Assembly (NCBI GenBank): GCA_022821275.1
Contig: JAJEDY010000001.1
Location: forward strand, 55,350-119,349
Direction of reading: 5' to 3'
Source: Candidatus Latescibacterota bacterium
Lineage (GTDB): Bacteria; Latescibacterota; UBA2968
Length of the DNA stretch: 64,000 bases
The position numbers and the translations under genes were made by a program. The notes beneath the pieces were generated by a model that was not told the origin of the DNA, searched no databases, and worked only from the letters and a program-made list of their open reading frames with translations. Position 1 is the stretch's first letter. Every line of letters starts with the position of its first letter. Shown here one piece after another: positions 21,493 through 26,865 of this stretch.

Positions 21493-24400
21493 CTATCCCC
21501 CAGCCCCAACCTTGCGACCAAAAAGATTGGCAAAGATGAGAAAGTCGGGAAAGTTGACGATGCCATCACCGTCAAAATCATAAGTGGAATCAGAAGTTTG
21601 AAATGCACGGACAAAAGAAAGGAAATCTGCAAAATCAATAACCCCGCTACCATCGGCATCGGCCCGCGCAAGAAGGTCTGGATCAACAGTATCAGTAATC
21701 CTTATCAATCCGAGAGGTGTACCACTCGCATCGGCTGTATTGAGAATCGTCAGTGTGTACCGAGCGGGAAATGGCACGGCAAAGGACAAAATCGCTCGGG
21801 TATTTTGCCGGTCGAGAATCACAGATGTGGGTTGCCCAATACCGCCGAGCAGATAACTCGATGGCAGTGCCGCATCTGGTCCCATCTCTTCCGAAAAGAA
21901 AATTTGAATCTGACTGTCCGACAGCGTTTCAACGCGCAGGACTTCTGGCGCACGGTTCGGCATAAGAGATACAATACCCGAGCGAATATCCCAATCAGCC
22001 ACAGCGACAATTTGATAGCGATAGGTCTGACCTTCAGTCAGCAAAGAATCAATGTACACCGTGCGGTCGCTGATCTCATCAAAATAACCGAGCGCACCAT
22101 CGCCAACAGCGCGATAAATCTGATAAGAAGACGCATCGGGCACTTGCATCCAGTCGATTTCAACACGGGTCGGTCCCAGCGGCCGCGCGCGTATAATCTG
22201 TGGCGACCCCATTGCGACAGGCGGTTCGTCGCGTTCGACAATATGCACTGTGCCATCGAAATTAAAAAGCACCTCATTGCGAAAATCTCTGTCCAGATCC
22301 GCAATGAGCGCGCGGCGCATCAAACCCACTGGCGTATGCCAGATCGGGCGATAGTGATCGGGTTTCTCTGCACGAAAAGCGTAGAGATCCGGACGCAGGC
22401 ATACGATCAGGTCGTCCAGGCCATCCCCATCGATATCCCCTGCCGAAATCCCATTGCCTGTGGTCGCCACGCCGTTAATCCGCGTCGTCCATTCGCGTAC
22501 ATAAGTATCGGGCGCACGCATGCTGTAAATCTCCAATTCCCAGAAACCATTGGAAGCTTCATACGCATCTGTGTACGCGCGCGCAACGGCAAATTCGACC
22601 AATCCATCGCCGTCCAAATCCACGCCCCCACCAACCCAACGCGCATCCCCCTCGCCCGGCAAGTACCAGGTCTGCACGTATCTCCCCGCGCGGTACTCAT
22701 ACATCCAGAGATCGCCATCGGCATCGCCAGCGAGAATTTCCCGCTGCTCATCTCGATCAAAGTCCGCAACCACAAAGCGCGGACCAGGATCGCCATTGCC
22801 CTCTGAGGGATCAACGAGAAATACCTCCTCGCGGATCACGCTACCGAGATTCCGAATCACGCGGATACCGCGCTGATCACCTGCTCGCGCGATAATATCG
22901 GGAATACTATCGCCATCCACATCGGCAAAATCGCCACCCCATGTGTCGCGCTGTTCAAATTCTACCTGCGCGGGATAGGGATTGGTGGGGCTATCTGTAA
23001 AAAGGACAAGACGCTCATAAGTCACGCCCAATAAATCATCGGTCCCATCATTTGTAATATCGCCAATTGACCAGGGCAAAAAACGCTCGTCGCTTTGAAA
23101 TTCATCAGAAAATGTACCATCCGCCTGGCGTTCGTAAATATGCACGGGTCCATAAGAATCGCCCGTAAGATATGGCATAAGCGCGATTTCCAGCTTACCA
23201 TCGCGGTCGAAATCCGATGCGCGATCGGGCAAAAAGCCATCGGGCAATGTGCCCATTTCCGCAAATCCATTTTGCGGGACGCGAAAAGGAACATAATCAA
23301 TTGTCTGTGCTGGATGCACCGCGCGGATATTGTTTTCTCCATCTGCCAAAATGTGGAATGTCACAACACCTGATGGCAATGTATGGGGCAGAACAACGCG
23401 GTGTTTGTTTTGCACCAGACCGGTGTACAGGGTATCGAAATCCGCGCCATAGCGGTAGGCAATACCCCCGTGTGCGCGCTGATCGGTGCGCCAGCGACAT
23501 TCAAAAACGCGGCGATCGCCTTCCAACACATCGCCACACGCAAGCGCGGTGATAGAGGGGGCCACTTTTTCAATCGCAACGCGAACCCGATCTTCCACGA
23601 CCACACCATCCGACAAATCTGCTTCGAGTCGCAAAACCGCGTCAGAATCAGCAAAAGCAGAAACATCCCAGGTATAGCGAATGTCCTGAGAGGGTATTCC
23701 TTCTACAAGACCTGTCCATGTTTGCGGATTGCGTCCTATGCCATAAGACAGGCGATAACCCGTGACCTGCGCGCCCGAAACAGAAGCGCGAATATCAAAC
23801 GCAGTATCATTCCCTTCATCATTGACGGGAGATTGTATCGCAACTGTCAGTTCTTCGAAAGTACCCAGACGGCTTGCGAGTTGCCCCCCACTCACGCGCC
23901 CTGCACCATAGTCATTGTCGTGCCCTGGCAGCCCCAGGTCAATTGCAGATGCGATGAGCAAATTGCGCACAGAATGGGGCGAAAGATCGGGCCGGCGCGA
24001 GAGAATCAGTGCGGCCAAACCCGATATGTGAGGCGCGGAAAAAGAAGTGCCAGAACCGGAGGCATAGCGATTATTGAGGCGTGTGCTGAGAATACTGACG
24101 CCCGGCGCAACCAGATCGAGCGACGCGCCCGTGCTGCTAAAACCCGCCAGACGGTCGGTATGGTTTACCGCACCCACAGCAATCGTATAGTGATTGCCCG
24201 CGGGATACCCCAACTCATCGCCCGTGTTCCCCGCAGAGGCGACGAGCACAACGCCTTGAGCGTGCGCGTATTGGATTACGTCGCCCAGGATAAAAGTGCG
24301 TTCAGGTCCCCCCAAACTCATATTAATAATATGCGCGCCATTCTCCACGGCATAGAGAATAGCCGCAGCGATATCATCTTCTTCGAGAAAACCAATGCCG

Positions 24401-25233
24401 CCAAGCCGTCTCAACCCCGCTCGCAGTGCCATAAGTTGGGCATTCGGCGCAATACCGGCAATACCTCGGTTATTATTCGTCGCCGCTGCAACAATGCCCG
24501 CAACGCGCGTACCGTGCGCCGATTCATCCTGCGGATCATTGTCGCGATTGAGATAATCCCCCATCCCCGGCAGATCTGGTGCATGGGTAAAGTCCCAACC
24601 CCTTATATCATCGATATACCCATTCCCATCGTCATCAACCCCAGCCGCTCCGTTCACTTCTGCAGCATTGTGCCAGATATTGTCGCGCAAGTCTTCGTGG
24701 TTATAATCGACGCCGGAATCAATGATCGCGACAACGATCTGTTTTTGAATGGAACCGAGGCTTTGTTGCAACAGCTCCCAATCAAGGGTCTGAAGGCTAC
24801 GTTGGTTGCCATAGCGCGGGTCATTGGGTGCTTGTTGGTGCGTAAACAAATAATTGGGTTGTGCGTACACAACATCGGGACGCAAGGCGTAATCGGCTGC
24901 GGCTGCGATAGGATCGCCCGACAAACGCACGCGGTACACATGCGTCATGGGATGGGGATAAACAGCCTTGGCACTTCGCGGCGTAAAAAGCGGTTCAATC
25001 GATGTTATGCCATACCATTCTGATAGATCGCGGAATTGTGCGAGTGCCGGCTTTGCATTGCGAAACTTGACGAGAATTTGCCCGGGAGAATACGCGGACT
25101 GCGCGTGAATTGTTTGCAAAAAGCAACCACAGATGAACACAGATAAACACAGATAAATGTAGAACCACCTGCCCAGCCCCCAGTTCCCAGCCTCTCGCCT
25201 TTCCTTGTCTCTCTGTGTCTCCGTGTGAGCCAT
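21493..25233 (-). CDS. Secreted subtilisin-like (S8) protease with FG-GAP/VCBS repeats and C-terminal tandem EF-hand module
   Basis: VVAIIDSGVDYNHEDL (Asp), HGTRVAGIVAA (His), GTSFSAPHISGLAALIL (Ser); repeated DFDRDGKLEIAL/DIDGDGLDDLIV; C-term DADGSGVIDFADFLSFVRAF...DFDGDGIVNFPDFLIFANLFG. Start set at MAHTETQ. Confidence 0.9.
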   Translation of the reverse strand: MAHTETQRDKERREAGNWGLGRWFYIYLCLSVFICGCFLQTIHAQSAYSPGQILVKFRNAKPALAQFRDLSEWYGITSIEPLFTPRSAKAVYPHPMTHVYRVRLSGDPIAAAADYALRPDVVYAQPNYLFTHQQAPNDPRYGNQRSLQTLDWELLQQSLGSIQKQIVVAIIDSGVDYNHEDLRDNIWHNAAEVNGAAGVDDDGNGYIDDIRGWDFTHAPDLPGMGDYLNRDNDPQDESAHGTRVAGIVAAATNNNRGIAGIAPNAQLMALRAGLRRLGGIGFLEEDDIAAAILYAVENGAHIINMSLGGPERTFILGDVIQYAHAQGVVLVASAGNTGDELGYPAGNHYTIAVGAVNHTDRLAGFSSTGASLDLVAPGVSILSTRLNNRYASGSGTSFSAPHISGLAALILSRRPDLSPHSVRNLLIASAIDLGLPGHDNDYGAGRVSGGQLASRLGTFEELTVAIQSPVNDEGNDTAFDIRASVSGAQVTGYRLSYGIGRNPQTWTGLVEGIPSQDIRYTWDVSAFADSDAVLRLEADLSDGVVVEDRVRVAIEKVAPSITALACGDVLEGDRRVFECRWRTDQRAHGGIAYRYGADFDTLYTGLVQNKHRVVLPHTLPSGVVTFHILADGENNIRAVHPAQTIDYVPFRVPQNGFAEMGTLPDGFLPDRASDFDRDGKLEIALMPYLTGDSYGPVHIYERQADGTFSDEFQSDERFLPWSIGDITNDGTDDLLGVTYERLVLFTDSPTNPYPAQVEFEQRDTWGGDFADVDGDSIPDIIARAGDQRGIRVIRNLGSVIREEVFLVDPSEGNGDPGPRFVVADFDRDEQREILAGDADGDLWMYEYRAGRYVQTWYLPGEGDARWVGGGVDLDGDGLVEFAVARAYTDAYEASNGFWELEIYSMRAPDTYVREWTTRINGVATTGNGISAGDIDGDGLDDLIVCLRPDLYAFRAEKPDHYRPIWHTPVGLMRRALIADLDRDFRNEVLFNFDGTVHIVERDEPPVAMGSPQIIRARPLGPTRVEIDWMQVPDASSYQIYRAVGDGALGYFDEISDRTVYIDSLLTEGQTYRYQIVAVADWDIRSGIVSLMPNRAPEVLRVETLSDSQIQIFFSEEMGPDAALPSSYLLGGIGQPTSVILDRQNTRAILSFAVPFPARYTLTILNTADASGTPLGLIRITDTVDPDLLARADADGSGVIDFADFLSFVRAFQTSDSTYDFDGDGIVNFPDFLIFANLFGRKVGAGG

Positions 25234-25312
25234 CTCACTTCCCGCCTTTAATCTGCGTAAAACGCTCAAATTACTCGCGTTTTTTCTGCGTTCATCTGCG
25301 GATTCATCTCGC
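25114..25312. repeat. Cluster of short repeats (10-mer tandem and related phrases) overlapping the 5' end of the subtilase gene
   Basis: ACAGATGAAC/ACAGATAAAC/ACAGATAAAT tandem at 25129-25158; CAGCCCCCAGTTCCCAGCC; TCTCTCTGTGTCTCCGTGTGAG; TCTGCGTTCATCTGCGGATTCATC. Confidence 0.6.
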
Positions 25313-26491
25313 CTTACTATAATCGGAAGGCAGCAGTGCAACCAGAAGGGCTGCCGGGAAGAGCAACATGGAGACAACCGTAAGCGCGGTAGCCGTAGAG
25401 GTCCACTCGGCAAGGCTCCCCACGCCGATCATGGCAAGGCCCGCCATGCCCCAGGAAAAGCCCATCACCAATCCGGTCGCCGTACTCGTATTGTGCGGCA
25501 AGGCGCGTTGCGCCAAAGAGATATTTGTCGTAATGCCGAGATCGAACAAATACCCCGCTACAAAAAACGAAATGAGCGCCAGGTACCCATCTGCCAGACA
25601 AAAACCCGCGTGAAAAATTGCGGATGAAGCACACGAAAAAGCCAGAAGTTTGCGCTGCGACATGCGATCTGCCAGATAGCCGCCCGTGATGCGCCCCAGC
25701 GTGCTGGAAAGCAAATAACAGGAAAAAACCCAGCCGATATCACTGGTAGTCCAGCCACGAGACGCCCCCAGAATAGCCGTAAAACTGACAAATCCCGTGT
25801 GAATAACAGAGCGCAAAACACTAATGGCAAAAAGCGTCCACAAAGAGCGGGTTTTTTTCAAAATAGAGAAATCGATTTTGCCTGCGGTTACGCGGCGTTC
25901 ATGCACGGGAACTTTTCGAGACTGCCACAGGATAAATGGCGCGAGAAACAAGACGGGGATAACAATAAGCCACAGATATTGGATACCGTATCGCTCGACA
26001 ATTTGCGTCCCGGTAATCGAAGCGAGCGCCATCCCCAGTGTTCCCCCCGTCAGAAAAATAGCCATAGATAGATTGGCGCGGCGCGGCGTTAAAGCCGTAA
26101 CCAATCCCCCGGCGGTGGGATGAAAAAGAGAGGACCCAAAAGACGCGAAAATTAAAAAAACAGCGAGTATAGAAGCGGAGGGCGCAAAGCCGATACAAGA
26201 GACAAAAATTCCCGTAATAAAAAGCCCCAGTGCAACGAGGGCCATGCGGTCGCGTCCATCGCTAAAATATCCCATAAAGGGCTGCGTGATAGAACCGCAA
26301 AAGACAATCACCGTGGGCAAATAGGCAAACTGCGCCACCGTGAGATTGAAATGACTCTGAAAAAAAGCCCACAATGGCGGCGTGAGGACCATATAAAAAT
26401 CCAACGCCATGTGTGCTGCAGTAATATAAAAAACAGGGCGAAAAGCCCCTTTTGGATCAGAACGAAAAGATGGCGTGGTTTCTGTGGACAT
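25304..26491 (-). CDS. MFS transporter
   Basis: 12-TM pattern; MSTETTPSFRSDPKGAFRPVFYITAAHMALDFYMVLTPPLWAFFQSHF; PTAGGLVTALTPRRANLSMAIFLTGGTLGMAL. Confidence 0.9.
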   Translation of the reverse strand: MSTETTPSFRSDPKGAFRPVFYITAAHMALDFYMVLTPPLWAFFQSHFNLTVAQFAYLPTVIVFCGSITQPFMGYFSDGRDRMALVALGLFITGIFVSCIGFAPSASILAVFLIFASFGSSLFHPTAGGLVTALTPRRANLSMAIFLTGGTLGMALASITGTQIVERYGIQYLWLIVIPVLFLAPFILWQSRKVPVHERRVTAGKIDFSILKKTRSLWTLFAISVLRSVIHTGFVSFTAILGASRGWTTSDIGWVFSCYLLSSTLGRITGGYLADRMSQRKLLAFSCASSAIFHAGFCLADGYLALISFFVAGYLFDLGITTNISLAQRALPHNTSTATGLVMGFSWGMAGLAMIGVGSLAEWTSTATALTVVSMLLFPAALLVALLPSDYSKAR

Positions 26492-26505
26492 AGAATAGCC
26501 TTTTC

Positions 26506-26865
26506 TCACAACCCGGCGCGTTGGAGAATGACCTCGCAGAGTTTTTCGTGCAGGCCCAGAGGTTCGGTAACGCGGATATGCACATCTGGATATGCCGCCC
26601 CGGCTTCTGTTGCCATACGCGGAATATCCTCTGTAGCATGGCGACCAGGAGACAGCATATAGGGATGAACAACGATCTCACTTGCCCCCTCGCGCACACA
26701 TGCATCAATGCCCTGTCTAATAGTGGGTTCGGCCAGTTCCATATGCGCGATGTGGACAATGATATCGGGGCGCGCTCGACGCAAAATATCGCCAACGCCG
26801 TGAAGCATCTGATTGGCTTCTTCACGCCTGGAACCGTGATCGACAATGAGAAGTGCAGTAGGCAT
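26506..26865 (-). CDS. CbiX/SirB-like chelatase family protein
   Basis: ALLIVDHGSRREEANQML; VHPYMLSPGRHATEDIPRM. Confidence 0.85.
   Translation of the reverse strand: MPTALLIVDHGSRREEANQMLHGVGDILRRARPDIIVHIAHMELAEPTIRQGIDACVREGASEIVVHPYMLSPGRHATEDIPRMATEAGAAYPDVHIRVTEPLGLHEKLCEVILQRAGL

Follow-up and report, generated by a model that had tools for sequence, protein, structure and literature searches.

The stretch of DNA analysed here (the window, 64,000 nucleotides; G000:C32:55350-119349) comes from a Latescibacterota genome, G000, of 5.66 Mb in 101 contigs. It carries on its minus strand a subtilase gene whose predicted signal peptide is composed of repeat phrases, one of them a dispersed element of ~43 bp that encodes the hydrophobic core. 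The preferred start codon, ATG 25231-25233, begins MAHTETQRDKERREAGNWGLGRWFYIYLCLSVFICGCFLQTIHAQS... and opens a frame, translated as MAHTETQRDKERREAGNWGLGRWFYIYLCLSVFICGCFLQTIHAQSAYSPGQ, that runs into the Peptidase_S8 protein; the first-pass annotation of this DNA had placed both the start and the sequence correctly. The Pfam search identified Peptidase_S8 (E=7.8e-59) and FG-GAP_3 (E=2e-18) domains, together with a Fervidolysin_NPro-like match to the prodomain slightly below the cut-off. D-rich repeats at the C-terminus were judged by eye to be dockerin/EF-hand-like. An Rfam search of the region gave no match.

By inspection, the N-terminus of the subtilase fits a Sec signal peptide, with a basic n-region (MAHTETQRDKERR...), a hydrophobic core (WFYIYLCLSVFICGCFL) and a small residue at -1 of the putative cleavage site TIHA|QS (-3 is I, -1 is A); cleavage after TIHA is plausible. 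The predicted core has 17 uncharged residues, with a Kyte-Doolittle maximum of 2.67 in a 12-residue window. Three repeat phrases together write this signal peptide, and the cleavage region is native sequence (Table 1).

Table 1. Features at the start of the subtilase gene, in window coordinates
Feature	Position	Strand	Basis
Subtilase gene, from the preferred ATG	21493..25233	-	Open reading frame (ORF) and Pfam
Codons of the predicted Sec signal peptide (44 aa, putatively cleaved at TIHA|QS)	25102..25233	-	Translation and inspection
Phrase 1, (TCTYYGTG)n family read on the A-rich strand; encodes the charged n-region	25203..25227	-	
Phrase 2, GGGGGCT/GGGAACT heptamer repeat	25172..25192	-	
Dispersed element of 43 bp with 42 nt matched (three 10-bp units, then GGTTGCTTTT); encodes the hydrophobic core	25119..25160	-	nhmmer
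Fragment of a related element (TCTGCGTTCATCTGCGGAT) in opposite orientation, in the gap separating the MFS stop from the subtilase start	25285..25303	+	13.1 bits, E=0.003
Upstream MFS transporter gene	25304..26509	-	ORF; MFS_1 E=8e-37

The N-terminus had been described earlier as a concatenation of repeat-like phrases, and by our controls all three phrases lie above chance. They are far from unique in the genome; uniqueness would have spoken against this description. With up to 2 mismatches, ATCTGTGTTYATCTGTG has 250 matches in G000 against 2 in the reversed control, as is expected of a dispersed genomic repeat, and the heptamer phrase has 20 against 0. Phrase 1 in its strict spelling gave no clear enrichment (13 versus 6 in G000), which cleared up with the degenerate (TCTYYGTG)n pattern: 10 versus 1 in G000 and, in two further genomes, 96 versus 12 (G007) and 54 versus 4 (G009). 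For the core, an element profile was built from 74 copies at sites other than the subtilase; the aligned copies give TGCCTTTTATCTGTGTTCATCTGTGTTCATCTGTGGTTGCTTTTGA, with conservation fading beyond ~43 nt. The match of this profile to the subtilase core spans 42 nt (39.8 bits, E=1.2e-11; nhmmer). Each element consists of three 10-bp units and a GGTTGCTTTT tail, so the earlier equation of the 10-bp tandem with the hydrophobic core names the right DNA but too short an extent: the core is slightly longer, the tail adding CGCF. Per-genome counts of the ATCYGTGTTYATCYGTG pattern, made across the phylum, are highest in G000 (139) and G004 (179), and G005 has 6. A longer mobile unit with TCTTGTATCTTGC upstream of the element was considered and rejected; TCTTGTATCTTGC is present in 4 of the 74 copies versus 2 shuffled, and the two 51-bp insertions described below thus define no fixed unit. 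The flanks of some copies (e.g. L172, L185, L170 and L209) hold more dispersed-looking phrases, GAATTAGGAATTAAAAATTAAGAATTA, GCTGATAGCTGAAGGCTGAAAGCTGA, CGTCTATTCGTCTATTCG and GGCGAGGCATGCCTCGCCCCTAC. The suggestion in the first-pass annotation that such phrases are dispersed in several phyla receives modest support from low-copy matches in Anammoxibacter, KSB1 and Poribacteria, with nothing beyond low copy number there. Low-copy matches also occur in plasmid-collection records of Gloeothece, Anabaena, Thiodictyon and Photobacterium. There were no matches in viral contigs and phages, and a literature text search for the 10-mer sequence returned none.

Nine same-genus genomes, G000 included, share the MAH/MVH start and the same repeat-coded n-region of the MAHTKTQRHKERR type, which the more distant outgroup G008 does not have. 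The G003 subtilase is split across two contigs and was omitted from the alignment. At the core, the element profile scores 39.8 bits in G000 and 39.4 in G004; the other orthologues reach at most 9.8 bits and have ordinary, CYALAVVISSSFLQ-like cores with a weak trace of the element at most. Protein-level conservation among orthologues, raised earlier as a possible argument against a repeat origin, therefore holds for the n-region alone, in these nine genomes, and does not extend to the hydrophobic core. The trace in G007 (9.8 bits, E=0.03), seen in that genome alone, hints weakly that all the orthologous cores could have descended from the element. From the ATG to the prodomain the nine genomes have 38, 42, 45 or 47 codons, with the frame always open, and the 38/45 difference, which occurs between several orthologues, is exactly 21 bp, i.e. 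three heptamers (7 codons) of phrase 2. The hydropathy maximum goes from 1.9 to 2.67 with the element. Since an ordinary signal peptide is present even in orthologues that lack the element, the element, as judged from the alignment, replaced a pre-existing hydrophobic core and made no secretion signal de novo. The suggestion that a dispersed or mobile repeat was co-opted as a secretion signal is borne out to the extent that the repeat encodes the core and that orthologous sites are empty.

The subtilase gene body pairs G000 with G005 (93.4% DNA identity) and G004 with G002. The signal-peptide segment rejects this gene-body tree (approximately unbiased (AU) test, p=0.0018), and the gene body rejects the alternative tree tested. 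From this conflict, the repeat-coded allele was probably exchanged or is an old polymorphism. In the outgroup G008, the signal peptide upstream of the subtilase (L060) has TTG as its apparent start and contains a CACTTTCGCA repeat that is local; as it is not dispersed, CACTTTCGCA was dropped as a candidate for a further dispersed repeat encoding a signal peptide.

Besides the subtilase, at least five exported G000 proteins have signal-peptide codons that contain the element, as a reading of all listed copies revealed: a TAXI solute-binding protein (TAXI), a multihaem cytochrome (CYT), a BamB-like propeller (PQQ), a Big_5 lipoprotein (BIG5) and g189, which has no Pfam family. The element-bearing proteins are mostly of exported families. 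Their orthologues were located with one chimeric query, and empty orthologues exist for each of the five; the profile scores of filled alleles range from 22.6 to 41.5 bits, whereas empty alleles have no profile match, the presence and absence at orthologous sites that is expected of a mobile element. In CYT, G000 and G004 have 51 bp inserted between TTTCACA and TTTTATGGG and read MRIRIFHILYLAFYRCLSVFICGCFLWVMLMFASC where G005 reads MRFGIFHILWVMLMFASC; the insertion is in frame, and the start codon is conserved in filled and empty alleles. TAXI is filled in G000, G004, G007 and G010 and empty in the other seven genomes. Its insertions of +36, +51 and +54 bp are in frame with the start codon conserved on both sides, and the start ATGTCGCG is common to all genomes except the diverged G008. 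BIG5 has 51 bp in G002 relative to G001 and G005, again with the start conserved, and is filled also in G000, G004 and G006. Filled g189 occurs in G000, G002, G007 and G010. For PQQ, one filled version is present in G000, G001 and G002 and a second one in G004 and G007. In the outgroup G008, CYT, TAXI and PQQ all lack the element and g189 has no profile match, a pattern that suggests, from the alignments, that the filled state is derived. G005 (JAJEHL01), the nearest genome by subtilase body, has none of the six core loci filled; the scarcity of the element in this genome is compatible with loss, with recent expansion and with recombination. A reading of 43 sites in G007 gave, besides TAXI, g189 and the L175 gene, two further candidates, L320 (on the A-rich strand) and L329 (a core).

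Tandem arrays of the 10-bp unit have an unusual coding property. Because 10 is not divisible by three (10 mod 3 = 1), every frame runs through the same ten codons, and on the T-rich strand all three frames yield an identical stop-free decapeptide: ICVHLCSSVF from ATCTGTGTTC (mean hydropathy 1.97) or ICVYLCLSVF from ATCTGTGTTT (2.62). The peptide from a ATCCGTGTTC array is less hydrophobic, and the opposite strand of the element meets a stop codon in each cycle. An in-frame copy in signal-peptide codons would thus supply hydrophobic residues whichever T-rich frame is used. All three frames occur among the six core insertions of G000, with SVFI.VHLWL in TAXI, g189 and BIG5, LCLSVFICGC in the subtilase and CYT, and LCVHLCLSVVAF in PQQ. 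Only ~1.2% of random 10-mers at genomic composition are open and equally hydrophobic.

The genomic placement of the element was taken from a census of copies listed by pattern search, a subset of all G000 copies, against genes called by a codon-usage gene finder. Of 78 copies, 66 are intergenic and 4 N-terminal, and 8 sit where a gene of the opposite orientation has its 3' end; none of the 78 mapped sites is in a gene interior. It should be mentioned that some N-terminal copies were counted as intergenic because the gene finder picked a later start. Of the intergenic copies, 24 are within 150 nt upstream of a codirectional start, 19 are next to an oppositely directed start and 23 have neither. 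At the eight gene 3' ends (L161, L167, L171, L175, L201, L202, L215 and L216), the A-rich strand encodes the last residues (e.g. ...KATTDEHR or ...QPQMNTDEHR) and usually supplies the stop codon too. The same strand gives MNTDKHR near the start of the L159 gene in G000, G002, G004 and G010, where relatives have MIRVWYLF..., and likewise near the start of the L175 gene in G000 and G007. At L175, one copy of the element serves both a gene 3' end and the signal-peptide region of the next gene. Upstream of the orthologue of this L175 gene in G006 (L303), another repeat, (CGAATCAA/CGAATAAA)n, is read in frame as KRINESTNKRINEST in the signal-peptide region. Copies within 260 bp of each other are divergent in all 18 listed pairs, a few of which share a copy or are orthologous, and 100 copies are solo; the subtilase core copy and the related element upstream of it have the same divergent arrangement. 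Many pairs (L166, L170, L186, L190, L194, L195, L211, L212 and others) have outer ends GCAACCACAG...CTGTGGTTGC and varied inner sequence. The divergence of the pairs suggests that they may be terminal inverted repeats of larger elements. Visual inspection of the CYT and TAXI alignments showed no clear target-site duplication.

Taken with the empty alleles in the six genes, we consider it very probable that the subtilase signal peptide has its n-region from phrase 1 and its core from a ~43-bp dispersed element that disperses into signal-peptide codons. The element would spread through intergenic DNA, solo or as divergent pairs, moving by insertion rather than by gene conversion alone. A copy of frame-preserving length landing in signal-peptide codons would be translated and supply hydrophobic residues that the signal peptide, still functional in export, could tolerate, and selection would purge copies that land elsewhere in coding sequence. 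Several observations weigh against this reading or soften it. At the T-rich composition of the element itself, 34% of 10-mers are equally open and hydrophobic, so the hydrophobicity of the decapeptide may follow from composition and need not be selected. In g189 and PQQ the filled alleles start at a codon other than that of the empty ones, which makes these two the less certain cases. Hydrophobicity does not clearly rise in TAXI, PQQ and g189, whose insertions may be no more than tolerated, and the subtilase alleles depart from the gene-body tree, which would allow more than one history of events.

The most serious alternative, to which we give slightly less than an even chance, is that of passive tolerance: the element inserts anywhere, kills most genes that it enters and persists where an extra hydrophobic stretch is harmless, adding nothing to export. 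The lack of interior copies among the 78 sites agrees with it, as do the empty signal peptides of TAXI, PQQ and g189, which are already strongly hydrophobic, and an insertion of a Rickettsia palindromic element (RPE) in a Rickettsia enzyme that was judged neutral to slightly detrimental (PMC2229807). It fits less well with the subtilase, where the element has taken the place of the native core and no other credible core remains, and with PQQ and g189, where the start region has been rebuilt too. A role as DNA or RNA, either a 10-bp-phased protein-binding site or a 5'-end regulatory sequence with the signal-peptide copies as a by-product of 5'-end preference, appears unlikely. The 10-bp period is near the DNA helical turn, and the 24 of 66 intergenic copies close upstream of codirectional starts would suit such a role; however, the 19 copies by opposite-direction starts and the 23 by neither show no strong orientation bias, and all six element-coded cores of G000 are on the T-rich strand, as the coding argument predicts. 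It is improbable that the subtilase starts downstream, with the repeats as untranslated intergenic DNA in frame by chance. The repeats are indeed intergenic elsewhere and the element contains an in-frame GTG, but a GTG start would leave MFICGCFLQTIHA, with a very short core, and no downstream start leaves a credible signal peptide. All nine genomes are moreover open from the ATG with whole-codon length changes, and the conserved upstream ATG of CYT and TAXI, with and without the element, makes these, with BIG5, three other genes that keep the upstream start. An assembly or binning artefact is hardly credible: G000 is in 101 contigs and repeats are error-prone, but the subtilase allele recurs in the independent metagenome-assembled genome G004 (JAJEAX01), and TAXI, PQQ and g189 are filled in the single-contig G007 (OX638329.1).

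The closest precedents are the RPEs and the Yersinia RU-2/YPO1552 case. RPEs (Ogata et al. 2000), as described in PMC2229807 and PMC10969869, are short non-autonomous repeats found in frame in protein genes and in intergenic DNA, and the present element resembles them in its in-frame insertion into ORFs. According to the same sources, RPEs are palindromic units of 105-146 bp in many ordinary protein genes. In contrast, the element described here is conserved over ~43 nt, is built on a 10-bp direct repeat and is not palindromic alone, and its coding copies lie in signal peptides or at gene ends. In Yersinia, RU-2/YPAL forms part of the YPO1552 signal peptide and relatives have unrelated signal peptides (Delihas 2007, PMC2759123); the available passages of that paper describe a 168-bp unit with one principal example and no near-identical empty orthologues, whereas in G000 alone the present element sits in six genes for which empty alleles exist, with three frames in use. 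Phrase 2 is of the 7-bp G-rich, dispersed type of the Nostoc GGGGA(C/T)T heptamers (PMC4692102), differing in that it lies in coding sequence and changes three units at a time. The element is also similar to prokaryotic miniature inverted-repeat transposable elements (PMC10969869) in being small, multicopy, non-autonomous and sometimes paired as inverted ends, although most copies are solo and no target-site duplication was identified, nor a partner transposase, for which no search was made. The element works like RPE and RU-2; what sets it apart is the size and structure of the unit, its recurrence in signal peptides with empty alleles and its coding in all frames.

We tentatively propose, as a possibility somewhat short of even, that the element is a portable signal-peptide core, that, with a stop-free hydrophobic peptide assured in any frame of one strand by the 10-bp unit, it is tolerated or favoured where it inserts at the 5' end of a gene for an exported protein, and that the signal peptides of this genus may have been rebuilt repeatedly from a small vocabulary of mobile phrases exchanged between species. 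The origin of export signals is usually argued from random-sequence experiments. The present system offers a natural replicate series, in which one element occurs in several exported proteins, each of the three frames is represented and close relatives supply the empty alleles. Ohno is said to have regarded oligomer repeats with a length not divisible by three as frame-proof coding material, and the element described here represents a modern, testable case of that idea. It also carries a warning for annotation, as a gene start in such a genome may be genuine even where it is rich in repeats.
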